Part shown: positions 5,877 to 64,000 of the stretch, one piece after another
Numbering within the stretch: the stretch's first letter is position 1
How the letters are laid out: each line of letters begins with the position of its first letter
Source of the DNA: Aquilaria yunnanensis
Taxonomy: Eukaryota > Streptophyta > Magnoliopsida > Malvales > Thymelaeaceae
Assembly: GCA_039654915.1 (NCBI GenBank)
Contig: CM077594.1
Span: forward strand, 110,994,893-111,058,892
Length of the DNA stretch: 64,000 bases
Direction of reading: 5' to 3'
Program-made: the position numbers and the translations under genes
The notes under the pieces: generated by a model
What the model was told of the DNA's origin: nothing
The model's database searches: none
Seen by the model: only the letters and a program-made list of their open reading frames with translations

Positions 5877-5982
5877 CCAGACAACATTTCCCCAGATGTT
5901 GGTCAGTACTAACTTCCTAGCACTTGGACTTTACTACTAGATCTCAGTCTAAGCCTCCAATATCCATGAAATAAAACCCTTA

Positions 5983-14470: not shown

Positions 14471-14547
14471 CCCTTAATTTCTTCTGATTCTGCTTGCGGC
14501 GTAGAAAAGTGAGGCCAAGGGCAACCTAAAGAAAATCCAGCTACATC

Positions 14548-45437: not shown

Positions 45438-47399
45438 TTAAGCAACAGCAAAAGCAGCTGCAGCAGCTTCATTTGAGCTCTTCGAACAGAAGAGATCTAG
45501 AACATCTGCATGGTTACGGATGAAACTTGGGCATTTAGACAGCAAATCTTGTGCTTCATCATGCCTTGCAGCTTTGAAAAGGGCTTCAAAAACACGGAGC
45601 ACCACTGAAGTAGAAGGAAAGCTCTTCGAAGCCATTGCCTTGAGGAAAACAATAGCATCATCACTATTTCCAGACTTCGACACATATTCGATGAATGGAT
45701 CCACAGAAGGAGGGAACCCATGACATTTCATTAAACCTAGAACACCAACAGCATCTTTAAATTCTCCCCAAACAAGTAATTTCTTAATCAAAAGTTTGTA
45801 GGTATTATGCGATAATTTCAACTGGTCTTCTCTGGCAAATGCATGGACTATCTTGGATGCCTCTAGTGCTCTGTTCTTATGACAATAAGATTTCACCAAC
45901 AACTCGAAAGCATAAGAAGCAGCAGACACGCCCTCACTTACCATCTTTGCTAAATAATTAGAAGCTTTGTCGAAATCCCCAGCATCACAATACCCTGCAG
46001 CTGAAGATACCCATTCCCTGTGATCTAAATTACTTTTTGACGCCTTCATGAGTTCAAGAAATATTGTCATTTCATCTTTTTTGCCAGATTTAGCAAGCTT
46101 GAAGGCAATTTGACTCAGGATATTACCCCCAACAACAAGCCCCCCTTCCTCCATCGCTCCAAGGATTTTGTCGCAATGTTCAAATCTACCAACGCTATTT
46201 AAAGATTTTAGAACTGAATTAAGCATGGAATCTGAAAACATATTTCCACCAGCCTTAGAAGCCCTCACAACTCTATGAAACAAACTCAAATCAAATTCTT
46301 TTGCAACTGCTATTTTTCTCATCAGAAAAGTGCAACATTGAATAGATGGCTTATTGTTTCCAGCCATTGCAAACTCATACAAGTTTACAGCTTCCTCAAT
46401 CAACCTCCTTTTGCAAAACCTTCCCAAAACCTTTACTAATGTTTCCATCTCCATTTCATATCCCTTTGCTCTCATCTCATCAACAAGCTTCCAGAACCTA
46501 TCAACACAATCTTCTCTCCCCAAAATCCTAGCCATAGAATTATAAGTTGACTGATCAAGGTTTGTTACACCACTCTCCTCAACCCACCTGAAAAAAATCA
46601 ATGCCTTCATTGGTTCTGTAGTAAGGCTTTCCAGCACCATCTTCACCAAATCATATGAAAAGTCGGCATGGAGGGCTTGTATTTTCTCTTCAACACCGTG
46701 CCCCCACACTTCACTCTTAATCATTCTACTGATTCTAGAAGAAACCTTTTCTACGGAATTATCTATAGAGCCTGATGCAAAAAGTGATCTCAACTTCTCC
46801 ATATCAGGAACCCAACCTTCTTTCTCAAACTTCTCCACAGCTTTATCGCGCACTGACCCAGATACCCCATAGCCTTTTTTCCTCATAGCATCGACCAGAT
46901 CCCAGAATTCATCTCGGAGACCATTCGTAACCAGAACATGCAACATGAAATTGTAGGATTTCGAGCTCAATCTCTCCCCTTCAGTCTCTAAGACCCAATC
47001 AAAGAACCTCCTTGCAATATCAGGACTAGCCTCAAGGTGTTCCAACACCTTAAGAACCAATTCGTGGCTAATGGCAACATCATTAGACCCCATTTCTCTC
47101 GCGATGTCGCCCGCATCCTTAAATTTGCTGAAAACATCAGTTACAGTCACTAAAGCTTGATCTGTCTCCGTTTGCTCAACCGCTGGTTCAGATGAGAAGG
47201 TACGGAAAACGGAAGCTGTAGAAACTACAGGTAGCCTGGTGCCCAAATCAGGGCTCGCGAATCGATGGCCGGAACAAGTGTTCTGAAGGAATGATGAGAG
47301 AGAGCGAACGGAGTTAGGGTTCGCCAGAGACCTACCGGGGAGATGGACAGGCGAACGAAGGAAACTTCCCAAGAGAAACAAGCGCCATTGTTGCCTCAT
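45438..47399 (-). CDS. P-class pentatricopeptide repeat protein, probably mitochondrial
   Basis: Intronless frame of 653 aa, typical of PPR genes. The N-terminus is Arg/Ser-rich with no acidic residues for about 50 residues (RSPVHLPGRSLANPNSVRSL), fitting a mitochondrial targeting peptide. Degenerate PPR helices are clear at about 146-180 (SYNFMLHVLVTNGLRDEFWDLVD...) and 283-317 (STYNSMARILGREDCVDRFWKLVDEM), with more through 560 (SHNTYKLLIKKLLVWGEFKDAVGVL). No E, DYW or SMR domain is present. It ends in an Ala-rich tail (EAAAAAFAVA). It resembles, from memory, the Arabidopsis At3g02490/At5g15980-type mitochondrial PPR proteins, so a role in mitochondrial RNA handling or the mitoribosome is inferred. 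Confidence 0.93.
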   Translation of the reverse strand: MRQQWRLFLLGSFLRSPVHLPGRSLANPNSVRSLSSFLQNTCSGHRFASPDLGTRLPVVSTASVFRTFSSEPAVEQTETDQALVTVTDVFSKFKDAGDIAREMGSNDVAISHELVLKVLEHLEASPDIARRFFDWVLETEGERLSSKSYNFMLHVLVTNGLRDEFWDLVDAMRKKGYGVSGSVRDKAVEKFEKEGWVPDMEKLRSLFASGSIDNSVEKVSSRISRMIKSEVWGHGVEEKIQALHADFSYDLVKMVLESLTTEPMKALIFFRWVEESGVTNLDQSTYNSMARILGREDCVDRFWKLVDEMRAKGYEMEMETLVKVLGRFCKRRLIEEAVNLYEFAMAGNNKPSIQCCTFLMRKIAVAKEFDLSLFHRVVRASKAGGNMFSDSMLNSVLKSLNSVGRFEHCDKILGAMEEGGLVVGGNILSQIAFKLAKSGKKDEMTIFLELMKASKSNLDHREWVSSAAGYCDAGDFDKASNYLAKMVSEGVSAASYAFELLVKSYCHKNRALEASKIVHAFAREDQLKLSHNTYKLLIKKLLVWGEFKDAVGVLGLMKCHGFPPSVDPFIEYVSKSGNSDDAIVFLKAMASKSFPSTSVVLRVFEALFKAARHDEAQDLLSKCPSFIRNHADVLDLFCSKSSNEAAAAAFAVA

Positions 47400-47422
47400 A
47401 TTCTGCTGATGCGAGGCCGGGA

Positions 47423-47431
47423 TTAGGGTTT
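47423..47431 (-). promoter_or_regulatory. Telo-box in the PPR leader
   Basis: Minus-strand AAACCCTAA 24-32 bp upstream of the PPR start codon. Telo-boxes are frequent in plant genes for translation and organelle biogenesis. The position suggests the 5' UTR or proximal promoter. Confidence 0.55.
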
Positions 47432-47539
47432 TGCTGCGCCTGCCAGAAGAGAGAAACCGAAAGCTGTTGGGGAAGAAGCGGGTGGCCTACTCGACTGTGT
47501 TCAGGGTTTTTTGACTTTGTGAGGGCATTTCACACCAGT

Positions 47540-47785: not shown

Positions 47786-49456
47786 ATTTTTTAGCCTAAA
47801 AGATAAGAATTCAAATCCATATGAATACAACCGCATTACGTACCTACAAGGATGTTAGTGAGCAAGTTTGAGGTGAGTAAAGTTATTTTTAGATCATCCT
47901 TTCAATACAAAAGTCATACCCAAACTTTCCTCACAACCCACAGCTGATAAAATGAGATATTGTACTTGTAATACCCACAGAAATGATTCATATAATAAAA
48001 ATAATAAAAAATAATAAAAACCAAAGAAGAAGGATAAGAACCGTAAAAAAGAAAAAAAATGTCACAAATCCTTTTATATTATGATTATGTTCTTTTAACA
48101 GCCATAAAAACAAACTAAAGCAACAAAGAAAAATAAAAAAGAAGAAAAATGTAGATAAATATAAATTTGGAAAAAAAATAATACAAAAAAATGAAGCTGG
48201 CAACAAAAGGCTGGAAAATTTGAAAAAAAAATGATGAAAAAACAATGATTACAAGTAGAAAAAGAAAGACAAAGTTACATAGAAAAAATGGGAATAAGAT
48301 GAAAAAATAAAGAGAAAAAAAAGCCATAAAAATAAATAATGAAAAAAAAAACTAGAAGAAAAGGTGCAAGAAAAAACAGAAAATAAAAATGGGAAGAAAA
48401 TGAAAAAAAAAACACACTAGGAAAAGAGTAGCAAAAATGGATTTAGCGCGAATCAAATCCACGACACCTTATTTCCACATACAGCATGCTAACCACTTCA
48501 CCAAATGTAATAGTTTGTTTAAAGATTGCATAAACTTTATAGGTGCCATTTTTACATGTGAAACTCGTATGTAGAGTGTTCAATGGGTCTACCGGGCCAA
48601 GGCTAGGTTGGCTAGGTCTAGGCATGACTCACCTTAAGACAAGTTAGGTATAGGCCGGGACTGGTGTGAGCTTGGAACTAGGCCAGGATTTTATTTAATT
48701 AATTTTACATTATTATTTCTTTTAAAGAGAAAAACACTACTACGAGACTAGATTTATTAATTGAAAAACCAAACGACGCTTATAAAAACTAGAACGTGTA
48801 ATACATGTGAAAATAACAAAACATTTCAACAATTACTGGATAAAAACATTAATAATCTCATCGGATAGGGCTTCATTGTCGAAACTAAGAGCAACATTAG
48901 GCCAATCATAGTTGCATTAACTTACCTTTTCAGATAACAGTTACATCCATTTATTAGGTTTTTCTATTTTCACGGAACTAAAACCTATTTTACTCACAAC
49001 TGTTGATTGTATGCACACGAATACTATCATTTTCCTACGAAACTTGCATGTTTTGGACCTCGCATCATTCTCAAAATGAAATGTGAATTTCTGGCCACGC
49101 CCAATGTGAACTTTTCCTGAATTTTACAACATGGATGTGGATGCCTTTATTGGCCAGACAAACTTTCTTATGAAAAAAAAAAAAAATCATTCCAGTGGTA
49201 CGGGATGAAGAGTCCACTACATCTTTATCCTTTTCTTTTTATCTTGATGCCATTAATAAAAGAGTAATAGTATAGATAAAGAAGCAAAGGAGGGCCGACG
49301 GATTTGTTCACAGCGTGAAGAAGCTTCAGCATGGGGAAATCAAAGGTGGGTTTGGCATGGATGAGGGAGAGGAAGGTTGAATCGGGTGAGTGATGGTAGG
49401 GATGGGGAAGAGGTCGGTGCTAGTCACGGGTGAGGATGATAGTGGAGATGGCGGGG
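47786..49456. other. A-rich intergenic region
   Basis: 47990-48420 is extremely A-rich low-complexity sequence (frames through it are artefacts). 48425-48500 has a tRNA-like segment on the minus strand (see rejected items). No gene. Confidence 0.5.
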
Positions 49457-51976
49457 TGTTGACACCCAATTTCGTCCGACCTGTAATTTTTTTTTTTTAA
49501 TTAATTATTCTTATTATTACCAAAAATAATAAAAAAATTAATAAAAAAAATTTTTAGGATATGGGGGGCATTTTATTTTATAGGATTAGCTTTAAAATAA
49601 TATATATCTATATTTGTGTATAAAAATCAAAATTAAAAAAAAATTAATTAAAAAAATTTAAAAAAAAATTTACTATTAATTAATTAATTATTTATTTTTT
49701 TAAATTGATTAAAACTAAAACTAAAAAAATTCTCCCCCTAGATACGTGTTTTCCTTGTAGCTCGGCCTCCCCCAGAACAAAACAAAAAAAATCTACCTAC
49801 CTTACCTGCCCCTGACTTTGGCTCCCCCCTACTAGAGAAATCACGAACTCTCTCCCTTATCTCAGGGACCCGATTTGATCTCTAGAGAGTTCGATTCCAG
49901 CTCCTTCTCTGTCCAATCTATCTGGCTCTCTCTAGATTTTTCTGATCTTATCTTCTCGGCTCTGAGATCATCTCTCTCCGAGGGCTCTTAAAAATCTCTA
50001 ACTCTCCTCTCTCGGGAGGACAGTTTGAGTTTTCCTCTCTCTGGCCTGGATCTCTAAAAAAATAGGACCCCTCTCTCTCCTGCTTCTCTCTCTCTCTCTC
50101 TCTCACTCTCTTAGCTCTCGCCGGAACCATCCCTCTCTCTCTCTTTCATCTCAGCTCTTCTCTGCATCTCTCGTCTTCTCTCCGACACGAACCCCCCCGC
50201 TCTCACGTGTTTTCTCTCGGCCTCTCACAGAAACACAAACTCCCTCGCCTCATTCCTCTCTCTCTCTCTCTTCCGGCGACTTCGCTCGCCTAACTCTCCT
50301 CCCTCTCCTTCCCTCTCATCCCGGAGCGTCGACGCCTCAGGATTTCCCCCAAAATTCACTGCCATCTTTCAGCTTCCTCCACTGCGCCGTTGCCTCCAGC
50401 TGCATCGCCGCTCCCTTTACCGCACCTCGTCGCGCCTAGCCCCCTTTGAATCCATTGCCTCGCCATCCCCTCGCAGCAGCGCCATCGCCGTGCTGACGCT
50501 GGAAGGAAAAAGGAGAAGTTAAAAACGTCAAACGCGTTTTTTTTTAATTGTTGACCAAAGTCAAAGACCTTTTTTTATATTTTAGGTAAAATCCTTATTT
50601 AGTCTTTAATTTTCTTTATTTTGATCATTTAAGTCACTAACATATCCGATTGAATTTTTTTTTTTTTTAAATCCTATTTCGTGTTTTGGTTGTGATTCTT
50701 GTTTGGATGAGTAGTGATGGAGAGGAACTTCGATTTCATGCTTGCTTTTTGAGTACTGTTCTATATTATGTTTTTACTGATGATCTCTGTTTGGTTTGGT
50801 TGCTGTGCTGTTAAACAGTATAAAATAATAAACAAAAAGATAGATTTACTTTTCTGAATATGGATGCTTTCGATAAAGAAAATCTATGAACTAAATCATC
50901 ACTAGTATTTTCTTTCTAATAATCGAATCCTTGGATTTTTCATGCTATTCGTGCTACTGTGAAATAACTGTTCATGTTTTGTTTATTTTCCGAATTTTTG
51001 AGCATTTTGGCAGGGAAATGAATTAATTTTTTTTTTGGTAAAATCTTTATTTAATCCTCCATCTTCTTATTTTCTTCCATATGAGCTACTAACCTCCTTT
51101 TATTGTTTATACTTTTCTTTGTTTACTTTGTTATTGTTGGTTTTCCCTTTCATTAAATTTGATCATTAAATAGACATAGAAGACAACATAAAATTTTTGA
51201 TTTGATATGTATCTTTATAGTTTAATTTTAATTATTGTAATGCATTAAATGTGTATCAAATTATTAGAAATCCGTCCTAAGATGGATTATTTGTTCCATA
51301 TCCGGGTGGTCCGATAGGATCTATGGTATGGAAATATAAAAATTAAACTCCATGTCCAAATGATTCGGTTAGAATCCATGGCTTGGATATTAACTAAAAA
51401 TTATTAAAAATAAAATAAAATTAAATAACGAATCCTAAGACGGATCATATCCATGTCCAAATGATTCGGTTAGAATCCATGGCTTGGATATTAAATTCCA
51501 TATCCGGATGATCCAGCAGGATTTACAGTTTGGAAAATATCAAACTTTTAAAATAAATAAATTAAATAAAAACATAAAAATCCATATTTACGATATGGAT
51601 TAATTGATTAAAATTTCATCAAATTCCGTGTCCAAATGACTCGGCAGAGTCCATGGTTCGGAATCCAAATCTTCCGTGTCCAAATGACTCGGCAGAGTCC
51701 ATGGTTCGGAAGTATAAAATTCTATACAAATTAACTTAAAAATCCACATTTCGACTAATTCAGTTAAAATTTCTAAGTTAACTGAAAATTATTTAAAAGC
51801 AAAGTAAAACAAAATTAAAATCAACTAAGGTGCCAATTTTGGGCGCTATAACAATATTGTTTTAGCGTAACCGTACTCCCGATCCCCGAACTCTCGCAGA
51901 CCAATTTTAAGGTGACCAATCGACCTAAGAAAACTGATTGGTGGCGACTCTCGAAAACGGCCCGCACGTTGCCACA
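49457..51976 (+). repeat. 5' LTR of the cargo-carrying element (2520 bp)
   Basis: Starts TGTTGACACCCAATTTCGTC and ends ACGTTGCCACA. 49800-50300 is CT-rich with (TC)n runs (50080-50110, 50254-50270). Short direct repeats: CCATGTCCAAATGATTCGG-based, 41 bp, at 51351 and 51450; TTCCGTGTCCAAATGACTCG-based, 40 bp, at 51626 and 51669. Confidence 0.85.
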
Positions 51977-51979
51977 GCT

Positions 51980-51997
51980 TGGCGACTCCACTGGGGA
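51980..51997 (+). other. Primer-binding site of the cargo-carrying element
   Basis: TGGCGACTCCACTGGGGA, 3 bp after the LTR. TGG at the start pairs with a tRNA CCA end. From memory this type is used by plant Tat-like elements; the tRNA species is not certain. Confidence 0.75.
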
Positions 51998-52967
51998 ACT
52001 CCGGTTAGTGAGTCGAGCCTAAAACTTGATTTGTTTTGTTTTGCTTTGCTTCTTTTTATGTGGATTTATATATTATATTTACTTAAGTAATCATGCATAA
52101 TGCATTCACAAAATGAAGCTCTATACCCGAGCTTCCTTAAATCAAACACGATTCTTTCTAAGCGGAATTGGTGTTGCTGTCCTTGTGAGGCCACGGTCTC
52201 CAAGCCTTCACCGGTTTCAAAGTAGCAAAGTAGTGTATTGCCTTCTGAGACGGTTAGTCTCTGCATGGGCCCACGAAAAGCTACGACTCGAATTAATCCA
52301 TTCCTTACATAAACCCTAGAGGTTAAGGAATCGGGCTGTCACTATGATTTAGTGACGGGATTCGAGAACTATCCCTTGCCTTTTTGATAAGCCACCTTAT
52401 GCATATAGAACTCCCCACTTAACCATAGAACTAACCATAGAATTTCTACCATTTTACCAACGCCATAAGCATATCCTTGTTATGCTGTGTTGTTACTCTA
52501 CACTTTTCTTCATATGGTTTTAACTTGTTTATCCATAATACTTCATGAGTTGTTAATTACTATTTAACTTGTTAATAACCTTATTTTTCTTTTGTTATAC
52601 TTCCATTCTGTGCAATTATTCTTCATGCATCAAAACCACGCATCAAATTATGCTAACTTTTTGGTCTTTTTAATAATAACTAGAAGTCTTGAAGTTTCAC
52701 AATAGTTGATAATCAAGCTCACTCATTGCATACATCCATTACATCAATCACATGCATATAAAATTTGATAAAAATAATCTCATTGCATGCATTCCATTAC
52801 ATCAATCACGTGCATATAAATTTTGATAAAAACATAATCTCATTATGTATTGCATGCATCCATTGCATCAATCATATACATGTAAAATCTAATAAAATGA
52901 ATCTCACTTTAAAAAAAGAAAAATTAGATCTCAACACCAATATCCAACTCGGCTCCAAACAAGACTA

Positions 52968-53143
52968 ATGGCAGAACAAACTGAAGGACGTCTCATAGAT
53001 ATAGAGTCCAAGATAGAAAATATGGCCGGAGCAATTCCCTCCTCATTACACCAAAAAATGAAATTCATTTTTGAAGGAAAGTTAATCACAGTCTTTGCTG
53101 AAGAAGGCATTCTGCTATCATCTATATCAATAGTAGCAAAGAC
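52968..53143 (+). pseudogene. Start of a gag-like ORF, interrupted by a solo LTR
   Basis: ATG 52968 opens MAEQTEGRLIDIESKIENMA, plausible for a retroelement Gag N-terminus (charged, helical). A segment KMKFIFEGKLITVFAEE then resembles, from memory, sequence found later in Tat-like polyproteins, so an internal deletion may have fused two regions. At 53143 the frame is interrupted by the solo LTR; after the LTR, joining the host flank gives a stop within two codons. Further coding-like remnants follow to about 56330. Confidence 0.5.
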
Positions 53144-56100
53144 TGTAATGCCCGGACAATCCAAAGTGATTAGGTCCCGGGTTAAATGGATTTGGAGCAT
53201 AAGAATTTTTCCTTAATTAGGAATTTAGCTCAATTAAATTGAGAAGACAATATGGCATGTGCATAATTGAGTGTTGAACGTCTTAAAAATAAGCTTGGCT
53301 TAGGCCAAGAGAAATAGTAATGAAAATGGTGGTTTTTAAAGATGAGGGACTAAATTGAACAAAGGGATTTTTAGTGGTTGGGCTCAATTGCCCAAATTTA
53401 GAAAGTTGGAGGACTAAAGGGGGAATTATGCCATTTTAATGGCTTTGGATGCCTTAGCCAGCCATGCCCCTCCAATTCCCAATATTTTATGTCACCTTCC
53501 TCCAAATCCTATTATTTTAATCCACCTCCCACCCTTAATCATTACCTTGGATTCTTTCTTCACCTACTTTTGACTTTTTCTACCAAACTTACACAAAAGT
53601 CTTCCAATTAGTCTTCCATCCATTAAATCTTGTCTCCCACTCATTTCAAACACATTATTAATTTCCTATTATTTTAATCCACCTCCCACCCTTAATCATT
53701 ACCTTGGATTCTTTCTTCACCTACTTTTGACTTTTTCTACCAAACTTACACAAAAGTCTTCCAATTAGTCTTCCATCCATTAAATCTTGTCTCCCACTCA
53801 TTTCAAACACATTATTAATTTCCTATTATTTTAATCCACCTCCCACCCTTAATCATTACCTTGGATTCTTTCTTCACCTACTTTTGACTTTTTCTACCAA
53901 ACTTACCCAAAAGTCTTCCAATTAGTCTTCATCTCTTTTAATCTTGTCTCCCACCTTCCAAGCACATTATACACTCATTTTCCTTCCCATATGGCTGGCC
54001 ATTACCTTCCCACACATTAAAACATAATCGCTCCACTCATTCAAAGCCATTTGCTCTCAAACTCTCTCATTCTCTCTCCATTTTCTTCCATACCAAGTCT
54101 CATCATTCCAAACACATTTCCAACTCTTTTCTCATCTAAATATTCGTCCATAGCTAGAAATAATCATTTCTCAAATTAAAACCAAGTATTCTTGGTTGAA
54201 TTCAAGCTCTAAGACCATAAAGAGCAAGAATCAGGTGAAGAATTCAAAGAAAACCAAGGAGGAAAATTCGGCTATTTCCATTTCTTGGAGGTTTTAAACT
54301 CCACTCAAGGAGCTCTTTGTGTGATTGAGTTCCTAAGTTCATTAGAAGCAAGAAATCAAGAAAAAGCTTGAAGAACATCAAGCACAAGAAATTGGCCTTA
54401 CCTCTTCTGTGAGGTTCTGTAAGTGTACACCAAGTGTTCTTGGTATTTTGTGTTATTTGAGTTAATCACCAAGTGTTCTTGGTATCTTATGGTTACTAAT
54501 AAAATTCGGCCCATCTTGGTTCTTATGCTAGAAAACAATTTCTAGAGTCAACAAGCAAGGAAAACGAAGGAAAATAAGCTTATAAAGCTTTCGGTGTTAT
54601 GGGTAAGGATTCCTATACTCACTTTATTGCATGGTATAATTCCATGGCCTTTTTATGTGAGTATTCGGGCCCCTAGGTGATGGTCAAAGAACCATGTGAT
54701 CCTAGGAGTGCTAAGAGGGCTTAAGTTATGTTATTGCTTCGGCAATTCTGTTTTGCTCATGAGCTAAGTTAAGTAAGCAAGCATTATGGGCTAGGAGTTA
54801 AGGCGGTCACCTTAATTCCTATGCTAAGTGAGCTCTCCGAAAACATTAAGTATATGAAATTAATGAACTAAAACTTGAGGGATGCTTGCTGCCCTTCTGT
54901 GAACAAAGTGTTAAGTGGCGTGTGTTTGTGTGCTTCTTTGATTTGTTGTGCATGCTAACCCCCGATTATGATATTATTGCTATATGCATGTATCTTTTTG
55001 TTTTCTTTGTCTTTATGTTTCCTTTGCAGGAATAAGGATTATTTTGCCATTACATTATTGGCATATGTTAGGCCTTGGAGGCCATAAGTTAGGTATTGGA
55101 TGCCACGGAATCCTTATTGAGTTTTATAACTCACCCGCCCTACTCTACTTTTGTAGGTAAAGGTTTGCTTGAAAGATCAAGCTAAGAGTCTTGAGTACTC
55201 TTTCTGTATTCTAAGGTTGGATTTGTGTATGGTATTGCTCAAAATATTCTAAGTATTCTAAGTATATAAGCTACTTGTAAACAAGCTAAAAAAATGTGGA
55301 CTTTCTGTGCAGGACTTGAAGTCTTAGAATTGTGGGAACAAGGTCTATTAAGGTGGAAATTTGTGTTCCATGGCTTTGTGAATTTATGGCTTGCTTTTAA
55401 GCATGTTTTTGTTGGTCTAACTTTAGTGACCAAATTATGGACTTAGCTAAAATTTGGCCAAACTTGGCTTTGGGCTTGTATTATGGACTTGGACATTTTC
55501 GGGTATTTTTATTGCTTGGTGGACTTACCAAGGCCCATGCATGAATTTATGGGTTATGTTTTCATGAAATTTGAAGCATGTTGAAATTGGGCTTAAATAA
55601 GAACTTAAAAATTTTGATTTTATTCTTGGTTAATTTTGGGCCATATGCATGTTAAGTACTAAAAGACCCATAAGCCCATGTCTATGTTAAAAGCATGCAA
55701 TGTCTGGCTATGTATGCTCATTTAGTAAAGAACATGCAAGTAAACTTAGAAAAAGCATGAAATTGGATGCTTGTGTAAAGTTTGGCTAATATGAAATTTA
55801 AATGCACGTATGTGAATTAATACATGCCTAAGCATTAGTTGCATTTAAAGGCATTAAGTGATTATGTGCACTAGTGAACTCCAAAACGCATAAGCATGCA
55901 AAGCATATGCATGAAAATAAGTTTTTAAACTTAAGTTGGTGTTTTAGTTGCCATGCATATTCTTGGCTAAGCTCGGTAAAGACCATGAAAATGAACACAT
56001 GAAATCCACATAGGCACTAGCTTGTTTCTGAGAGCACATCAACTTAACCTTAATTAAAGAACTTAACGAGCTAGTACCGATAAGTATCCTGGGGTTCGTG

Positions 56101-56209
56101 CCTATAAGTCTTAGTGAGTTTTAAAAGCCCCTTCTGTGTAATGAAAACTTCCGCTGCATGTTTTAAGTAATCAGGCCCAAATGGGCCAGGGGCAGTTTAG
56201 GGCACGACA
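53144..56209 (+). mobile_element. Solo LTR (3066 bp) nested in the gag-like region
   Basis: Starts TGTAATGCCCGGACAATCC and ends GGGCAGTTTAGGGCACGACA. It is flanked by the perfect 5-bp direct repeat AAGAC (53139-53143 and 56210-56214), proving insertion into the older element. There is no PBS, internal region or second LTR, so it is a solo LTR left by unequal recombination. Its length and TGTAATGCCC start fit a chromovirus-type LTR (inference). Orientation is assumed from the start motif. Confidence 0.9.
53507..53980 (+). repeat. 157-bp tandem repeat, three copies, inside the solo LTR
   Basis: The unit beginning TCCTATTATTTTAATCCACC occurs at 53507, 53664 and 53821, exactly 157 bp apart. The first two units are nearly identical; the third diverges after about 110 bp. 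Confidence 0.93.
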
Positions 56210-56529
56210 AAGACCAAGTGACCTTCTCTTCCAAGTTGGTGTGACTCAAATCCCAAATATAACTGAAAATTCTGTCATATTGAAACTCAAGGTCCAACAG
56301 TTGGTCGAGTCCAAGTTCCTAGGCCTGATGTGATTGGTAATTGAAAATGAAGATTTTGAACTGGAATTACATTGATTTTGGAAGGGCTCCAAGTCAGATC
56401 TGACCTAACAGTCCGCACACACTTTTGAAGGACAGGGAATCCTTTGAATAAACTTGTATCTTTGAAAGCTTGCAAAAGTAATTTAATAGTAAAAATCTCC
56501 TAGATTTAGTCCAGAATCTAGGGTGTAGT

Positions 56530-56890
56530 CTTTGTTAAATGGACACCTGCTATTCTTTTTCTGGTGCAACAAAAAGATGTAATGCGTGCATTCTACTACT
56601 TTCCATTTTTACACTCTTTGCCATTATACTATCCATTATTGCCATCACACTTTACTTTTCGACAACCGGTAATTCTTTTTGTTCTCTAACAAAAAGATGT
56701 TGCGTGTGCATTCTACCACTTTTTAATCCCATTATTACTTCTACACATTCTACCAATTTTTACCAAAAATTCAATTATTACACCTACACATTCTACCACT
56801 TCTTACCAAAAATTCCGTTTTTACATCCATCTCTCACTCCTTTCCATTATACTATCCATTATTGCTATCACACTTTACTTTGAAAACGAT
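56530..56890 (+). repeat. Low-complexity internal repeats of the cargo element
   Basis: Imperfect repeats of ATTCTTTTT...AACAAAAAGATGT-GCGTGCATTCTACYACTT and CTATCCATTATTGCCATCACACTTTACTTT. The 114-codon frame across it is repetitive and not a recognisable protein. 57305-57410 is A-rich. Confidence 0.6.
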
Positions 56891-57584
56891 ACTACTCGTG
56901 GGTGAAAATAAAAAGTTAAGAGAGATTTAATAGTGGCGATCTTGAAAGTGCTGTCAAATCTAGTAAGAAGGATTTCATATGTTGCACCTCAACCCTCAAA
57001 AGGAATTCACAGTGGTTATCAACATCCTTGCAAGAAGTCCGGGGTTAGCTTCCAAATCCAAAGAAGTTAGCTCTCATATTAAATGGCTTCAATGGTCTCT
57101 CAATTCTCATGAATGCTCAACACAAGCAAAGGTTCTCAGTTCTCTGCAACACAAACTCCAAAAAGAAAGAGAAATTCGTCCCTTCCATCAAAAGACAACA
57201 AGGGGAAATTCAAAACCAAAAAAGGACTGAGAACAAGCACGAGCAAGCAAAGCCACTTGAGTCATCTCACTTCAAGAGAGTTATCAAGTATGTCATCACC
57301 ATAGCTCACAAAAAAAAAAAAAAAAAGGAAACAAAAAAAAAAGAAAAACAAAAAAAAAAAGAAAAGAAAAGAGGCTCAAGTTAGAGCAAAAGAAAGAAAA
57401 CAAAAAAAAGTGAGCTATGGATTCTAGACTGAAAACCTGCAAAGGTGGTTTAGAACACAAAAGCAACCCTCAAACCAAGCATGCATAAAGATCACAATAG
57501 TTGGGGGGCAACAGATGAGGTCTAACTTTCTGGAAAGAGTGGCAAGTTGAGGTCATCACTATTGAGTTTTTCACCACAATCAAA

Positions 57585-58290
57585 TTTGCTCACGAGTAGT
57601 ATTAAAAGACCCTTTTTCCACACCACTTAAATTTAACTTTCCTCAAACCGAACATCCTCATTCAGTTAAAAGACTATCATTGTGAATCATGTTTCTGCCT
57701 TGTTTAATACTGCTCATGAGTAGTATTAAAAGACCCTTCTTTCAAACCACTTAAACTTAACTTTCCTCAGACCGAACATCTTCATTCAGTTAAAAGACTA
57801 TCATTGTGAATCATGTTTCAACCTTATTTAATACTGCTCACGAGTAGTATTAAAAGACCCTTCTTCCACACCACTTAAATTTAACTTTTCTCATACTGAA
57901 CATCCTCATTCAGTTAAAAGACTATCATTGTGAATCATGCTTCTACCTTATTTAATACTGCTCACGAGTAGTATTAAAAGACCCTTCTTCCACACCACTT
58001 AAATTTAACTTTTCTCAGACTGAACATCCTCATTCAGTTAAAAGACTATCATTGTGAATCATGCTTCTACCTTATTTAATACTGCTCACGAGTAGTATTA
58101 AAAGACCCTTCTTTCACACCATTCAAACTTAACTTTACTCAGATCTAATATTTACCTCTTAATATCATTCTTATTCAGCTAAAAGATAGCAACAAAACAA
58201 AAAAAAACATTCAAACTTAATTTTCCTCACGCCTAACAGTTACCTCTCGATATCATCCTCATTCAGCTAAAAGGCTATCCTTGTGAATCA
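57585..58290 (+). repeat. 124-bp satellite-like tandem array, five units plus partials
   Basis: CACGAGTAGTATTAAAAGACCC (the second unit has CATGAG) recurs at 57591, 57715, 57839, 57963 and 58087, an exact 124-bp period. Each unit also carries GACTATCATTGTGAATCATG. A degraded tail continues to about 58290. Internal arrays of this kind are known from Tat-lineage elements, where they can seed genomic satellites. Confidence 0.93.
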
Positions 58291-58299
58291 TGTTTATAC

Positions 58300-59184
58300 C
58301 TTATTGCCTTGCACAGTTTATGTCTTCGAGTTGGAAAGGGAAGAATGGCAGGATATTTTAATTAAAAACAAAGACCGTAAATTACTTTGTCAAGCTTTGT
58401 AAATTGATGAAAGTTTTTCTTTAAGGCCAAACCATTATTCATTAATGTGTGTAGACTTAAAAGTGAGGATATAGCTTGAGTCTTTCTTTAATAAGATGTG
58501 GTTCTTGTAAGAGAAATTTACGATCAAGTACCATCACAAAGGTCTAGAAATGCTCGACCTTCTGTTAAATCAAAGGCGAGATGATATCTCTTTCCACATA
58601 AACACCATATTCAGGGGGGCAAAGTAGTCTCTACGAAGCATAAGAGGAGTACTGCCAACAAAGAAGTTCAATAGACAAGGGGGCAAGTCTTATGGATCAA
58701 AACATGAGTTCAAGGAAGAGCAATCATTCAGATTATAATATGGGGATAAGTAAGTGTCGGCACGGTCACAAGAAAAGGGGCAAAGCAGACATTGAAAGTA
58801 AAGCCTTTGATGGTATCAAATCTATGACAATGGATGAGTACCCGAAAGAGATATAAATTATGAGGCGGGCCAACTTTAAAGAAATTGAGGCCAAAATTCA
58901 AGAACAAGTCAAAGAAAGGGGATTTTGAAAAGAGTTGGGCTTTTGAGGCAGCGAACAAAAGCTGGAAAGCATAAAGAGATTCAATGATAGTCCAAGAAGG
59001 CCATCACAAAGAGAATCCAGTAAAACAAAGATATAAAGAACTAGATCCATACAAAAAAAAGCCATTAGTTACACATGCTCTGCATTCATGCATTTCATAT
59101 CATGCATACATAGCCTTTACATAACAAGGACCAAACGGAAATCACATTCACAGCATAGTTACAACAGTATAAGCTGAGATCTCA
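58300..59184. other. Interior of the cargo element without recognised genes
   Basis: Retroelement-like sequence with two purine motifs (GGGGGGCAA near 58614, AAGGGGGCAA near 58672) and a broken frame near 58862-58925. No domain identified. Confidence 0.45.
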
Positions 59185-59260
59185 ATGTCATCAGCTCTTA
59201 CCAATCTATCACTGGATACACAGCTAATATGCGGGACCAACCCGCATCAGGAATTCAAGG

Positions 59261-59640
59261 ATAAAGTAGACAATATTGTCAAAAGCTTGGCTACCGATTC
59301 AATAATCAAGGCTACACCTGGAAGGATAGGATTGACGCCAGCTAGTAGTATCCAAGATAAAAGATAGCTATAGCCAAGGATAAGGCAGATATAAAAAAAT
59401 ATATAAAGTAGACAATATTGTCAAAAGCCTGGCAATTGATTCAATAATCGAGGCTACACCTGGAAGGACAGGATTGATGCCAGCTTAGCAGCATCCAAGA
59501 TAAGAGATAGCTGTGGTCAAAGATAAGCGCGGATATCGAGAAATATTGTCGTCGAAAGCAGACAATGGATTCAATAATCAAGGACTGGATTAATGTCATG
59601 CCTAACGAGATATCAAAGATAAGAAATATCTATGATACCA
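59261..59640 (+). repeat. 142-bp tandem repeat, about 2.5 units
   Basis: ATAAAGTAGACAATATTGTC recurs at 59261 and 59403, followed by AAAAGCYTGG, GATTCAATAATC-AGGCTACACCTGGAAGGA and GCCAGCT-AG-AG-ATCCAAGATAA. A third, decayed unit starts near 59540. It directly precedes the leader of Cys/Arg-rich copy 1. Confidence 0.8.
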
Positions 59641-59769
59641 AAAAAAAGTAGGATCCACTTTTCCGGTTAAACGGCGGATACGGTACTCCGTGACTCTCAA
59701 GTCGGTTCTCTCAGTTGCCCATAATAACTGATTCTTTCCTCTCTTCTTTCTTTTACTTCCCTCTAGAAA

Positions 59770-60318
59770 ATGGATCTTACTCTTTCTGTCTTACGAAAAT
59801 ATTTTCCTTCTCTCCCAATGAACATTCTCAAAAAGATCTACCAAGTTCGCTGTGAACGATTAAGAGTTCTGATGCGCAAATGAATCCTTAAAGATGTGCG
59901 GTGGTTAATCGAAGCCAAGGTTCGTCTGGCAAGTGAAATCCCAGAGGCATTTGTGTCTCACATGCCTGGTATAGGCAAAAGCTCTTATGCCAAAAAGCGA
60001 AGAGCGAAAAGGTTACAAGTCTGCCATAAATGTGGACGGTGGACTTGTAATACTAAATGTCGTTCTTTAGGGATGATCTCTGATAATCGAGAAGATAAAA
60101 TACGATTCATTAAGAATGGCCTGAGTAAGGACTTGTTGGATGATATCCAATTGACTCTTGAGACGCATTCTTGTGGATCTGTGCAACGTGAACTTCTTGG
60201 TTTATGGAACATTTTTCATGAAGAACGAAACCGTTACAGTCCCGGGAATCTGACTGTAAATGACCCTGTTTGCCAGCTTGTAATAAAACTGGATGGAAAG
60301 CAAATCCTCGACTCATAG
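59770..60318 (+). pseudogene. Cys/Arg-rich nucleic-acid-binding-like protein, copy 1 (one premature stop)
   Basis: 183-codon frame with an in-frame TGA at codon 38 (59881-59883), otherwise open to TAG at 60316. The N-terminal third is amphipathic (RKYFPSLPMNILKKIY). A GIGKSSYAKKRRAKRL stretch follows, leading directly into CHKCGRWTCNTKC (C-x2-C-x4-C-x3-C). The C-terminal half is charged, with ERNRYSPGN and NDPVCQ. A basic, nuclear-localisation-like stretch followed by a small zinc finger is the layout of the cysteine-rich nucleic-acid-binding proteins of carla-like plant viruses, some of which affect silencing; homology is inferred from this layout and needs a profile search. The three copies have equal total length (549 bp), so they descend from one ORF. 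Confidence 0.6.
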
Positions 60319-60470
60319 AAGCCGTTAATGCCGTTACTGGACGTAAAATCAGTGGAAGATGTGAGCCACAGTCACAATTACTGTACATACAGTTTGTTAT
60401 ATTTGGAAAAGTTTGCATTTTCTTTTGACAGATGTACATGCTCCCCTAAGTGTAATCGACACGTTATCCA

Positions 60471-60490
60471 TTTTCATCACTATAAATGCG
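60471..60490 (+). promoter_or_regulatory. TATA module before copy 2
   Basis: TTTTCATCACTATAAATGCG; a GTGTAATCGACACGTTATCC block lies just upstream and has a counterpart in the module before copy 3. Confidence 0.5.
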
Positions 60491-60607
60491 TGTTCTTCCT
60501 TCTGATTAAGCAGCGGATAAGATACCCCGTGACTTCTAAATTCGGTTATTCCAGTCTCTTACAATAACTGATTCATTTCCCTCTTCTCTCAAATTCTTCT
60601 CTCATCA

Positions 60608-61156
60608 ATGGATTCTACTCTTTCTGCACTGTGAAAATACTTTCCTTCCCTTCCAATAAAAGTTCTTAAAAAGATTTACCTTGCTAGATGTGAAAGAATC
60701 AGAGTTTTTACACCCAAAGGCATTCCCGATAATGTGCAGTGGATAATTGAAGCTAAGGTCCGTTTGGCGGGTGAAGTTCCAGATGCATTTATGCCCCGCA
60801 TGCCCGGTTTAGGTAAAAGCCGTTATGCCAAAAGGCGAAGAGCAAAGAGACTAGGCGTGTGTTATAAATGTGGGCGATGAAATTGTAATACTAAATGTCG
60901 CTCTTTAGGATACATCTCCACAAATCGTGAAGATAAAAGAAAATTCATTAAGAATGGCCTGCGTAAGGAATCTCTGGAAGATATCCGAGAGACTCTTGAA
61001 ACACATTCTTGTGGAAAAGTGCAAGGTCAAATTGTCAAATTGTGGAGGACTTACCATAAAGAACGAAACCGTTACAGTCTTGGGAATGTGACTTTAAACG
61101 ACCCTGTTTGTCAGTTTATAAGGAAACTGGATGGGAAGCAAATCCCCGACTTATAG
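60608..61156 (+). pseudogene. Cys/Arg-rich nucleic-acid-binding-like protein, copy 2 (two premature stops)
   Basis: Same 549-bp layout as copy 1, starting 838 bp downstream. In-frame TGA codons at 9 (60632-60634) and 91 (60878-60880); the latter replaces the Trp codon that follows CGR in copy 1. No net indels. The basic run YAKRRRAKRLGVC and C-x2-C...C-x3-C finger are kept. It has its own TATA module 127 bp upstream. The two stops are TGA codons at sites that are open in the other copies, consistent with point decay after duplication. Confidence 0.6.
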
Positions 61157-61298
61157 AAGGCATTGAAGCCATTACTGGACATAAATCAATGGAAGATGAG
61201 AGCCACAGTCATGATTGCTGTACATATAAGCTGTCATTTGTCTTTTCTTTTGACAATAATGTACTTGCTTCTGTAAGTGTAATTAACGCATTATCCCT

Positions 61299-61316
61299 TT
61301 CATCACTATAAATATG
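61299..61316 (+). promoter_or_regulatory. TATA module before copy 3
   Basis: TTCATCACTATAAATATG preceded by GTGTAATTAACGCATTATCC, closely matching the module before copy 2. Confidence 0.5.
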
Positions 61317-61372
61317 TGTTAGTTATTTTCGTTTCCTACAATCACTAATTTCTTTCTTTGCCTCCTTCATCA

Positions 61373-61921
61373 ATGGAGTCTTCTCTTTCCGCCATACGAA
61401 AGTATTTTCCTTCCTTCCCAATAAATGTTCTTAAAAAGATTTATCAAGCTAGATGTGAACGATTCAGAGTATTTATGCACAAAGGCATTCCTGATAATGT
61501 GCGGTGGCTAATTGAAGCTAAGGTTCGTTCAGCTGGTGAAGTTCCAGAAGCGTTCTTTCCCCGTATGCCCGGCTTTGGTAAAAGCGCTTATGCAAAAAAA
61601 AAAAAGAGCAAAGAGGCTAGGCGTTTGTCATAATTGTGGATGGTGGATTTGCGGCAATAAATGTCGTTCTCCAGGAGTGATCACCAGAAATCGTAATGAT
61701 AGAATAAGATTCATTAAGAATGGCTTGCATAAGGAATCTCTAGAAGATATTCGAGAGGTTCTTGAAGCGCATTCTTCGGAATAGTGCAATTTGAGGTTGT
61801 TGGATTATGGATAATTTTCCAAAAAGAACGAGATCGTTACAGTCTTGGGAATCTGACCCTAAACGACCCTGTTTGCCAGTTTGTGAGAAAGCTAGATGAG
61901 ATACAAATCACCGATTCATAG
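61373..61921 (+). pseudogene. Cys/Arg-rich nucleic-acid-binding-like protein, copy 3 (two frameshifts)
   Basis: 765 bp after copy 2, again 549 bp to the equivalent TAG (61919). A 12-A run at 61594-61605, inside the basic region, carries one extra base. A one-base loss near 61776 restores the frame, but in the shifted frame a TAG (61782) would end translation first. The finger is CHNCGWWICGNKC. Apart from these lesions the N-terminal frame is open. The homopolymer shift could be a sequencing error, but the second lesion is not in a homopolymer. TATA module 66 bp upstream. Confidence 0.58.
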
Positions 61922-61975
61922 AAAGCATTGAAGCCATTACTGGACGCAAAGCCAGTGGAAGACGAGGATCAAAGT

Positions 61976-62500
61976 CACGATTACTGTACGTGCTAGCTGT
62001 CGCTTTTGAAATTTTCCTCCCCTTTTGGTAATAATGTATCCACTCTTGACGTGAGCAACAGTCACGATTACTGTACGTGCTAGCTGTCATTTTTGAAATT
62101 TTCCTCCCCTTTTGGTAATAATGTATCCACTCCTGACGTGAACCAAAGTCACGATTACTGTACGTGCTAGCTGTCGCTTTTGAAATTTTCCTCCCCTTTC
62201 GGCGATAATGTATCCACTCCTGACATGAGCCATAGTCACGATACTGTACATGCTAGCTGTCACTTTTAAAATTTTCCTCCTCCTTTGGCAATAATGTACC
62301 CACTCCTGACACGGACTACTGTATATAGCTGCCACTTTTGAAATTTTCCTTCACTTCCGACAATCACGTACCTACTCCTGACATAAGCTACAATCGCGAC
62401 TACTGTATATTTTAGTTGCTTTTGAAATTTTCCTCCTTTTTTGATGATAATGTACCCACTCCCGACCTGAGCCATAGTCGTGACTACTGTGTATAGCTGG
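61976..62500 (+). repeat. 87-bp tandem array between copy 3 and the LOG-like gene
   Basis: CACGATTACTGTACGTGCTA recurs at 61976, 62063 and 62150, with a variant at 62237, exactly 87 bp apart; looser units follow near 62317, 62393 and 62478. Units also carry TTTGAAATTTTCCTCCCCTTT and AATGTATCCACTCCTGAC. Single relatives of the unit follow copies 1 and 2, so the array is an expansion of the 3' flank of the Cys/Arg-rich gene. Confidence 0.9.
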
Positions 62501-62544
62501 CAATAATGTATCCACTCTTGAGAATAAAATTATTACTTTATCTT

Positions 62545-62562
62545 TTCATCTCTATAAATATA
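62545..62562 (+). promoter_or_regulatory. TATA module before the LOG-like gene
   Basis: TTCATCTCTATAAATATA, 48 bp from the TATAAATA start to the LOG ATG. It shares the TTCATC-x-CTATAAAT core with the two modules upstream although the downstream gene is different. Confidence 0.5.
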
Positions 62563-62600
62563 TCCTTTTTTCTTCTTTTCTCACAAGGGTAAGGATAGGA

Positions 62601-63230
62601 ATGGAGAAAACCCCAACTCGTAAATCCCGAAGTATTTGTGTATTTTCTGGGGCTTTTCCTGGAAAAGATGAAGAGTATTTAAAGGCAGCCAACCATTTGG
62701 GTAGAGTATTAGCTGAGCGAAAAATACATTTAGTTTATGGAGGAGGTAGTGTCGGATTAATGAGAGGTGTAGCATCAGCAGCATCTTTAGGAGGAAGTCA
62801 AGTTTTGGGCATCATCCCTGGACCTTTGAAATTTGTTTCTGGGGGCACGATTGGAGAAGAATTAGTGGTTAAAAATTTGCAAGAGCGTGTGTTACAAATG
62901 CTTTTAAATGCTGATGCTTTTATCACTCTACCAGGTGGTTTTGGCACATTGAGAGAAGTCTTTCAAATTGCTTCCATGGCCCAACTTAATTTGCATAAAA
63001 AACCCATTGGGCTTTTGAATGTTAACAATTTCTTTACAGGTCTGATAGCTTTTATGGATTATGCTATGTAGAAGAATTTCATATCAAGAGTGGCACGGCG
63101 AATTATAATATCCGCAAAAACTGCTGAAGAATTGCTAGATAAAATACAAGCTTTTGTTCCTGAACCAGATCCAGCAATGATTCGGATAGACTGGACACGA
63201 CAGTCTTTCCCGACCAGTTCACTCCCATAA
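62601..63230 (+). pseudogene. LOG-type cytokinin riboside 5'-monophosphate phosphoribohydrolase, intronless, one premature stop
   Basis: LOG enzymes release active cytokinin bases from their ribotides in one step. The frame from 62601 runs to TAG at 63069-63071 (156 codons) and is open again, in register, to TAA at 63228, giving 209 codons, the usual LOG length. Motifs: SICVFSGAFPG (N-terminal Rossmann strand), VYGGGSVGLMRGVA (GGGxxGLM nucleotide loop), the Arg in LQERV, and LPGGFGTLREVF, the PGGxGTxxE signature. After the TAG the frame reads SARxxI-like helix sequence and then DKIQAF. The position of the stop suggests a GAG to TAG change. Plant LOG genes have several introns; this copy has none, so it is a retro-copy or of non-plant origin. 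The truncated 156-aa product would keep the active-site motif but lose the C-terminal helices. Confidence 0.85.
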
Positions 63231-63839
63231 TGGTCCTCTACTCACCCTGTTGAAGTATTGTGGAAGAAAGAAGCGATCTGATCCGTTTTTCTTGTCCTTT
63301 CGTTTTAATTATCAGCATTTTCTTTCGCGTTTCAGTTTTTCTTTTCAGGGAATTTCTTTTTTTATAGGATAGTTTCACCCATGCTGATATTAAAACCATA
63401 GGACAATGCTTTTAGGTTGGAATGGCTGAGTAAAGAGTAATTTTTGTTACTCTTGAGACGCATCCTATTAGGTCTACTAGGCATAACATTTTAGGGTAGT
63501 TAAGCTTTAACTTTATTTGGATGACATATCTCACAAGGGAATCTATATTTACTAAAGAAAATATTAGATGAACCTTGGATATTGATTCCAAACATCCGTT
63601 CCCTTTACATAATTTGTCAGTGTTATTGTTTTCATCAAGATTCACTCATCTTATCGAAGTCTAAATTTCTGCACTCACCTATTATGAAAATTCACACTTC
63701 CAAATAGAACATTTCAACTTCGATTGTCTGAGGTACTTAAAAAGGAGGAAAGAGTTTTTCTCCACAATCAAAATCAATTTCGAAAACAATCAATTTTCAT
63801 CATCGGGGTTTTAAGGATGGAACCTTTGCCTCGAAAACA
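63231..63839. other. 3' interior of the cargo element
   Basis: No gene. The purine tract AAAAAGGAGGAAAGAG (63738-63753) could be a PPT, but it lies about 90 bp before the LTR match. GAAAACAATCA occurs twice (63782 and 63833), the second at the junction with LTR sequence. Confidence 0.45.
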
Positions 63840-64000
63840 ATCATTAAATAGACATAGAAGACAACATAAAATTTTTGATTTGATATGTATCTTTATAGTT
63901 TAATTTTAATTATTGTAATGCATTAAATGTGTATCAAATTATTAGAAATCCGTCCTAAGATGGATTATTTGTTCCATATCCGGGTGGTCCGATAGGATCT
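63840..64000 (+). repeat. Second LTR copy, 5'-truncated, cut by the window edge
   Basis: 161 bases equal to 51162-51322 with a constant offset of 12678 and no mismatch seen. The match starts 1705 bp into the LTR, so the first two-thirds of this LTR are missing at the junction. Confidence 0.9.

Follow-up and report, generated by a model that had tools for sequence, protein, structure and literature searches.

The 64,000-nucleotide stretch of the Aquilaria yunnanensis genome analyzed here (the window; C2:110994893-111058892, in a searched genome of 842 Mb and 345 contigs) ends in a non-autonomous copy of a large, high-copy Ty3/gypsy retrotransposon family of the Tat/Ogre type. Although it lacks reverse transcriptase (RT) and integrase (INT), this copy carries a module of four genes between its long terminal repeats (LTRs): three tandem genes for proteins resembling the nucleic acid-binding protein (NABP) of carlaviruses, and one gene of the LOG family, whose enzymes release active cytokinin. 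The module is present in 13/13 copies read, and its genes look as if they had been kept by selection, even in copies without replication genes of their own.

The window copy is a single insertion

An earlier note on this stretch, made from its letters, had described an LTR and a primer binding site (PBS) followed by cargo genes without visible pol. Both LTR and PBS are real (Table 1): full-length relatives of the LTR, at 98%, lie at three places on C4, and the PBS, where found in relatives, is identical to TGGCGACTCCACTGGGGA or differs by one A/G change. The note had also allowed that the right-hand LTR might belong to a separate insertion, leaving the cargo simply intergenic. This LTR lacks its first 1,705 bases, and the 3' end of the interior is missing too. 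Because the left and right LTRs are identical at 811 of 815 aligned bases (99.5%) over their shared part, and because the target-site duplication (TSD) CGGGG flanks both outer ends, the sequence from 49457 to C2:111059546 is a single insertion with an internal deletion, and its right LTR is not a separate one.

Searches by tblastn found no RT or integrase in 49457-64000, in agreement with the note. The queries were a Tekay-type polyprotein and the Athila-like pol of a contig described below, L001 (both at E 1e-5), as well as the family's own ORF1, gag, protease (PRO), RT and RH-aRH-INT pieces (E 1e-2; RH, RNase H; aRH, a second RNase H). The sole match was a protease-region remnant at 53019-53120, whose 34 residues match residues 414-447 of the PRO open reading frame (ORF) at 88%. 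Of the gag and pol of a Tat/Ogre element the window copy has only gag-start and PRO remnants, and it is a derivative of such an element, not a full member. Its interior is further interrupted by a solo LTR of another retroelement, which inserted later than the cargo element and whose empty site is seen in the relatives L019 and L011. Among the internal satellites that the note had mentioned, the 157-bp one (53507-53970) therefore belongs to the nested solo LTR. The sequence at 56210-58850 has no match of at least 150 bases at E 1e-15 in two pol-bearing copies. All four cargo genes are disrupted in the window copy, which encodes none of the proteins whole.

Pol-bearing and pol-less copies form one family

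Nine copies, the window's included, were chosen as LTR pairs with element-like spacing and read over the cargo; a tenth region (L029), fetched in part and with RT matches, was left uncounted, and a plus-strand LTR at C4:91021265 proved to be a solo LTR. In 9/9 copies the cargo lies between the paired LTRs in constant gene order, with three NABP genes in eight and two in one, which bears out the note's suggestion of a retroelement family with its cargo inside the same LTR pair. Two of the nine are pol-bearing and measure about 22.6 and 22.8 kb by their LTR ends and starts; they read ORF1, gag, G-patch ORF, RT, RH-aRH-INT, NABP1-2-3, LOG and 3' LTR, so that the module sits between integrase and the 3' LTR in sense orientation. 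The other seven are pol-less and about 15-20 kb long.

We assign the family to the Tat/Ogre type because its pol-bearing members have RVT_3 between RH and INT, gag, a G-patch ORF and a DUF7745 ORF1. In L022:146-2146, RVT_3 occupies residues 105-215, H2C2 305-362 and rve 381-478, which places a second RNase H between RH and integrase, as is the hallmark of Ogre and Retand elements (PMC6317226). ORF1 of the pol-bearing copies matches DUF7745 at 1.5e-55 and falls just below the cut-off for PMD (34.3 against 34.9 bits), a domain present in 57% of Ogre elements (PMC6317226). Tat/Ogre elements have a short, spliced gap between their gag-pro and RT-RH-INT ORFs; in L021 the PRO frame ends at 8540 and the RT frame starts at 8715. 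Directly after the LTR, the pattern TGGCGACTCC[AG]CTGGGGA stands in 8 fetched elements besides the window's, including the pol-bearing L026; L021 has no match to it. This PBS may be of the tRNA-Arg type. Apart from pol, NABP1-3 and LOG, the ORFs of at least 120 codons in L022 are four repeat frames and a single frame running antisense to pol. A long array of short repeats with open frames on both strands lies between LOG and the 3' LTR of L022 (6895-8159).

Protease-region remnants end at PRO residue 447 in 5/7 pol-less copies (the window's, L011, L015, L019 and L027); the pol-less copy at C4:91M retains gag and the first 28 PRO residues, and that at C7:75M part of gag. We read these remnants as the outcome of one event that removed the region from RT to integrase, with erosion continuing afterward. 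Over the parts compared, the two LTRs of pol-less copies show 97.1-100% identity (97-100% across pol-bearing and pol-less copies together), and a perfect 5-bp TSD was found in 3/3 insertions with both outer ends read. Thus, the pol-less subfamily kept moving. Separately, the solo LTR at G000:C4:91021265-91023784 (+) and a full element at G000:C4:29957-45089 have their TSD and flanking bases in common, a pattern that would fit a segmental duplication in which one copy underwent LTR-LTR recombination, or else a duplicate in the assembly.

The module recurs across the genome, mostly ahead of a 3' LTR where tested

The note had also considered that the cargo might occur mainly outside such LTRs. 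This outcome was not seen among the loci tested (no genome-wide count of cargo outside LTRs was obtained). Four further loci drawn from the list of LOG matches carry the module, with three NABP genes in 3 and two in 1, and their fetched 3' sides show a polypurine-like sequence and the start of a 3' LTR 1.9-4.4 kb after LOG in 4/4; one of them, C8:55.97M, has the 26-mer that marks pol-less copies. On C1 below 23.94 Mb, an exact junction of polypurine tract (PPT) and 3' LTR follows downstream on the same strand for 11/13 LOG and 4/5 NABP1 loci (15/18), within limits of 8 kb for LOG (chance 0.016 per locus) and 10 kb for NABP1. Two separately scored lists, with 148/150 NABP places used, yielded 13 NABP-LOG neighbor pairs, where chance would give 0.37; in every pair LOG has the orientation of NABP and lies 2.63-2.80 kb downstream of it.

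The 26-base PPT/3'-LTR junction occurs exactly 2,269 times genome-wide, a count of LTR junctions rather than of cargo-bearing copies; the reversed control occurs 0 times. First-pass searches gave 8,504 NABP, 3,632 LOG and 29,665 pol places, all of them candidates and not copy counts, and NABP and LOG places lie on all eight large contigs. Among the 148 NABP1 places, four same-strand pairs are spaced by 14-16 kb, G000:C1:91996434/92010530 and C7:82470792/82485311 being two of them; tandem elements with a shared LTR would give such a spacing.

The cargo genes are constrained

Among the scored places, 150/150 NABP, 147/150 LOG and 66/66 pol frames are stop-free; these are the best-scoring places, biased toward intact ones, and show that there are many open copies rather than their share. 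In the aligned parts, 5 of the 12 relatives read are without stops, in line with the note's supposition of intact copies elsewhere, and the cargo frames of the pol-less copies at C6:10.36M and C4:67.8M are stop-free. The ratio of nonsynonymous to synonymous substitution rates (dN/dS) over all elements is 0.21 for NABP1 (n=12), 0.36 for NABP2 (n=12), 0.28 for NABP3 (n=11) and 0.21 for LOG (n=13). For pol-less elements the corresponding values are 0.29 (n=7), 0.34 (n=7), 0.28 (n=6) and 0.24 (n=8). These are pairwise Nei-Gojobori estimates with stop codons skipped, and their codon-bootstrap limits all lie below 0.5. The sets leave out the second NABP of C8:55.97M and the window's NABP3; the two NABPs of C4:67.8M were entered by order as NABP2 and NABP3, although the first of them has an upstream part like that of NABP1. 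When the tandem NABP copies within each of four elements are compared with one another, dN/dS comes to 0.20-0.42 and dS to 0.28-0.94, so these copies are old and were constrained.

These values bear on whether the four genes could be passive passengers, that is, host and viral sequences captured once and copied along without function. Such a history would suit the window copy, where the genes are broken though the LTRs are 99.5% identical, and therefore were either inherited broken or lost very recently; it would also suit the 7/12 relatives with at least one stop in some cargo gene. Yet the dN/dS of all four genes and of the tandem NABPs, the constant order and spacing, and the related proteins in several eudicots all argue for retention, and we regard passive carriage as very unlikely.

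The note's repeated TATA modules hold for three of the four genes. TATAAAT is present upstream of NABP2 in 7/9 stretches, of NABP3 in 8/9 and of LOG in 9/9, at a distance of 13-127 bases from the first codon used (one of the NABP2 stretches was too short, and LOG distances run from the first aligned codon, not always an ATG). Upstream of NABP1, none occurs within 130 bases (0/8 copies).

The NABP-like proteins match two viral Pfam families

The note's reading of three NABP-like copies and a LOG-like gene agrees with their Pfam matches. NABP1 of the window (59962-60318) passes the gathering scores of both Viral_NABP (27 against 23 bits) and Carla_C4 (24.4 against 20.9), as do NABP1-3 of L022. 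In the window's NABP3, the piece at 61590-61784 reaches 19.1 bits for Viral_NABP, under the cut-off of 23, and the piece at 61373-61633 has no Viral_NABP match. Viral_NABP and Carla_C4 are each matched by 57/61 aligned family members (E 1e-3), and in four full-length members scanned singly the Viral_NABP matches cover 84-104 residues. A single query found 296 relatives and a profile 712; the best 120 of each were listed, with names from Rhamnella, Xanthoceras, Populus, Orobanche and Acer.

A scan of genome contigs with NABP gave one locus, L001 (DAIEQH010000041.1, 3.3 kb), which carries an integrase ORF without RVT_3 and, 0.2 kb beyond it, an open NABP gene with 70% identity to the NABP1-type relative P0121; the Carla_C4 score of this NABP lies just below the cut-off (19.8 against 20.9). 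The pol of L001, which we take to be Athila-like by motif, shares about 31% identity with its counterpart in the pol-bearing copies. With an NABP gene behind integrase in two lineages, the gene is therefore either old in that place or was transferred between them. L001 is filed under a metagenome-assembled genome of Candidatus Nomurabacteria yet has plant-type retroelement content, and is for that reason probably contamination. Scans of viral contigs with NABP and LOG confirmed no relative.

Matches above cut-off to virus-named families raise the question of an endogenous carlavirus-like integration beside an LTR, or of intergenic cargo next to a separate right LTR. We consider this extremely improbable given the TSD at both outer ends, the spread of NABP and LOG places over all eight large contigs and the presence of the module in every copy read, and no other long ORF besides repeat frames lies between the pol and the 3' LTR of L022. 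No replicase, coat protein or triple gene block was found among the L022 ORFs of at least 120 codons (no separate virus search was run). The TSD and the recurrence of the module led us to reject both candidates, an endogenous carlavirus at the side of an LTR and a pair of LTRs unrelated to each other.

The LOG-like protein retains its catalytic motif

The window ORF at 62601-63071 matches PF03641 at 1.6e-23. The LOG motif PGGxGTxxE is kept in the window LOG and in 31/33 relatives. There are 2,969 LOG relatives; among the best 120, which were listed, many come from Reevesia pubescens and others from Populus, Paulownia, Rehmannia, Parasponia and Diplodiscus, which implies no retroelement location for them. 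Some LOG and NABP relatives come from contigs of equal length (8723, 4511 and 2128 bases), a hint, given no weight here, that the two may be linked in other plants. In the A. yunnanensis genome, multicopy LOGs take up the list of scored LOG places. One LOG-type relative, P0002, matches Arabidopsis At2g37210 (2a33) at 4.3e-66, and eight LOGs compared with At2g37210 are 46-54% identical to it. In a tree with only two cellular references, both from Arabidopsis, the LOGs of the relatives and of L022 separate from these at 100/100. The frame is continuous and plant LOG genes contain introns, so that capture from a spliced transcript would fit.

What the module may do

From the structure of the element and its module we infer a role for the cargo. 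The explanation that we favor, and judge somewhat probable, is that the window holds a non-autonomous Tat/Ogre copy whose module is kept for helping propagation, with NABP as an anti-silencing factor or activator and LOG releasing cytokinin. Pol-less copies would use RT and integrase from their pol-bearing relatives, and the module would be retained for the sake of proteins that aid the propagation of the element or of its relatives. In carlaviruses, p12 of chrysanthemum virus B (CVB) activates transcription in the nucleus and suppresses silencing in the cytoplasm (PMC7588395); by analogy, NABP would bind RNA and dampen small-RNA silencing, activate nuclear transcription, or both. LOG, of a family named with a role in cytokinin activity (PMC9289625), would set free active cytokinin and hold the host cell in a dividing, meristematic state. 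New insertions in dividing meristematic cells can be inherited, and the resulting state would be one of lower silencing and more division. A bolder version, in our view doubtful, is that the family encodes its own anti-silencing and cytokinin or proliferation program, selected even in pol-less copies, and that the carlavirus suppressor gene family shares ancestry with an Athila/Tat gene through exchange between virus and retrotransposon.

The cargo proteins could instead serve the element's own replication, with NABP as an RNA chaperone or packaging protein and LOG as an enzyme or partner in the particle, rather than act on host silencing and hormones. This is the chief rival, and we think it rather unlikely. 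In its favor, NABP is basic, Cys-rich and encoded behind integrase, the site of extra ORFs in this group; constraint is seen in all four genes; and the majority of extra ORFs in plant LTR elements are without a match to any known domain (PMC6317226). Set against it are the retained catalytic motif of LOG and the pol-less copies, which retain the module though RT and integrase are gone and gag and protease are variably eroded.

Several observations weigh against the propagation role that we favor. Besides the stops in relatives counted above, 2/13 LOG and 1/5 NABP1 loci on C1 below 23.94 Mb lack an exact junction in range, and the constraint measured in pol-less copies may be partly inherited from pol-bearing ancestors. 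As for the viral likeness, the Cys pattern CxxCx4Cx3C, found in 55/61 NABP members, presumably differs from the carlavirus one; the predicted NABP structure is helical and its model weak (pLDDT 67.6, pTM 0.34); and Foldseek against BFVD gave no match under E 0.04, the first 19 rows having E of at least 0.042 and TM scores of 0.15-0.25 by query length. A PDB search with NABP likewise gave nothing significant (best E 0.52).

The NABP resemblance might also be convergent, a basic or zinc-finger protein of the retroelement only resembling the carlavirus one. The modest matches (E about 1e-5 to 1e-8), a Carla_C4 match that falls largely on the basic stretch and the first part of the Cys cluster, and lies just under cut-off in L001, and a predicted fold without significant match would all fit convergence. 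We nonetheless consider it unlikely, since nearly all members match each of two Pfam families (57/61), Viral_NABP spans 84-104 residues in the full-length members, and 17 of the first 19 Foldseek rows bear betaflexivirus names, mostly NABP or 'RNA silencing suppressor' (the other two are unnamed). We take the viruses named in these rows to belong to the betaflexivirus family.

Relation to known elements

LARD and TR-GAG elements are non-autonomous elements that keep LTR, PBS and PPT and have lost pol, and the LARD interior has no coding capacity. The pol-less copies described here, in contrast, retain constrained accessory genes. Reportedly, Steinbauerova et al. (2011) found two Athila-like elements with LOGL4 similarity. 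The note could not match its combination of features to a described element. A described kind does exist for it: the copy is a pol-less derivative of Tat/Ogre, and a LOG domain in plant LTR elements has already been published, namely YgdH, a LOG-family domain, in the consensus sequences of LTR elements from Citrus and, without a filter, from Populus (PMC9289625, citing Steinbauerova et al. 2011). Those elements resemble ours in having a LOG-family domain within an LTR element, and Populus LOG-like proteins are among the relatives here; the available parts of that paper report no NABP gene or four-gene module. With Tat/Ogre elements (PMC6317226, PMC6431247) the family shares large size, long LTRs, an ORF1 before gag (here with a PMD match just below cut-off), RT-RH-INT in a different ORF from gag/PRO, an aRH that separates RH from INT, additional ORFs and tandem repeats; unlike them it has the forward 3' NABP and LOG module and a pol-less subfamily retaining it. 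Grande and other plant LTR elements with aORFs likewise have an accessory gene in the 3' region, which in Grande is reportedly transcribed from a promoter of its own; the proteins are different, and here up to four genes lie in sense orientation (PMC7264820).

The NABP-like proteins share with the carlavirus and betaflexivirus NABP (CVB p12) the Viral_NABP and Carla_C4 matches and a basic stretch beside a Cys cluster (PMC7588395). Unlike the viral protein, the retroelement protein has about 182 residues, of which a predicted helical N-terminal portion and a long C-terminal portion lie beyond the match, its genes stand in tandem, and its Cys spacing is CxxCx4Cx3C. A literature search, with most subscription journals outside its reach, found no published NABP gene in retroelements and no such module, nor is an NABP gene in retroelements found in the available parts of PMC9289625, PMC7264820, PMC6317226, PMC6431247 and PMC11728184. 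The NABP gene and the module are thus without a report that we could find.

Extra ORFs of plant LTR retrotransposons for the most part await a function, and here two kinds with recognizable biochemistry are found side by side in all examined copies of a high-copy family and are constrained. A large survey of such ORFs applied a 250-codon cut-off (PMC6317226), which would pass over both the 182-codon NABP and the LOG of about 210 codons; the module may therefore have been missed in other species. Some multicopy LOGs annotated as host enzymes, such as LOGL10 in Populus, may be retroelement-derived. If the proposed functions are true, a transposable element would encode both a hormone-activating enzyme and a protein like a silencing suppressor, and so connect retroelements with RNA viruses and with the development of the host.

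Features of the locus and neighboring sequences

Table 1. Coordinates of the cargo element and of sequences within it, numbered along the window.
Feature	Position	Strand	Remarks
Left TSD, CGGGG	49452..49456		right copy beyond the window, C2:111059547-111059551
5' LTR	49457..51976	+	2520 bp, TGTTGACACCC...TTGCCACA
PBS	51980..51997	+	TGGCGACTCCACTGGGGA
Remnant reading frame	52968..53143	+	gag start (by eye) joined to protease-region remnant
Nested solo LTR of another retroelement	53144..56209	+	3066 bp, TSD AAGAC; not part of the cargo element
Pol-less-subfamily sequence	56210..58850	+	colinear matches in 6 other fetched copies
124-bp satellite	57587-58143		within 56210..58850
NABP-like gene 1	59770..60318	+	182 codons, one in-frame stop here
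TATAAAT box	60481..60487	+	upstream of NABP-like gene 2
NABP-like gene 2	60608..61150	+	two in-frame stops here
TATAAAT box	61307..61313	+	upstream of NABP-like gene 3
NABP-like gene 3	61373..61921	+	frame broken here
84-87-bp tandem repeats	61970..62494	+	between NABP3 and LOG
TATAAAT box	62553..62559	+	upstream of LOG
LOG-like gene	62601..63229	+	single intronless frame, PGGFGTLRE motif present, one in-frame stop here
Truncated 3' LTR	63840..64000	+	from LTR position 1706 onward; runs beyond the window to C2:111059546

Elsewhere in the window, three open frames on the minus strand were classified by eye. An uninterrupted gag-pol frame of 1598 codons at 1134-5930 belongs to another Ty3/gypsy element and appears Tekay-like. 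The frame at 13457-14473 has two B-box-like zinc-finger motifs and is probably a CONSTANS-like host gene, and a 682-codon frame at 45438-47486 resembles a host pentatricopeptide-repeat protein.

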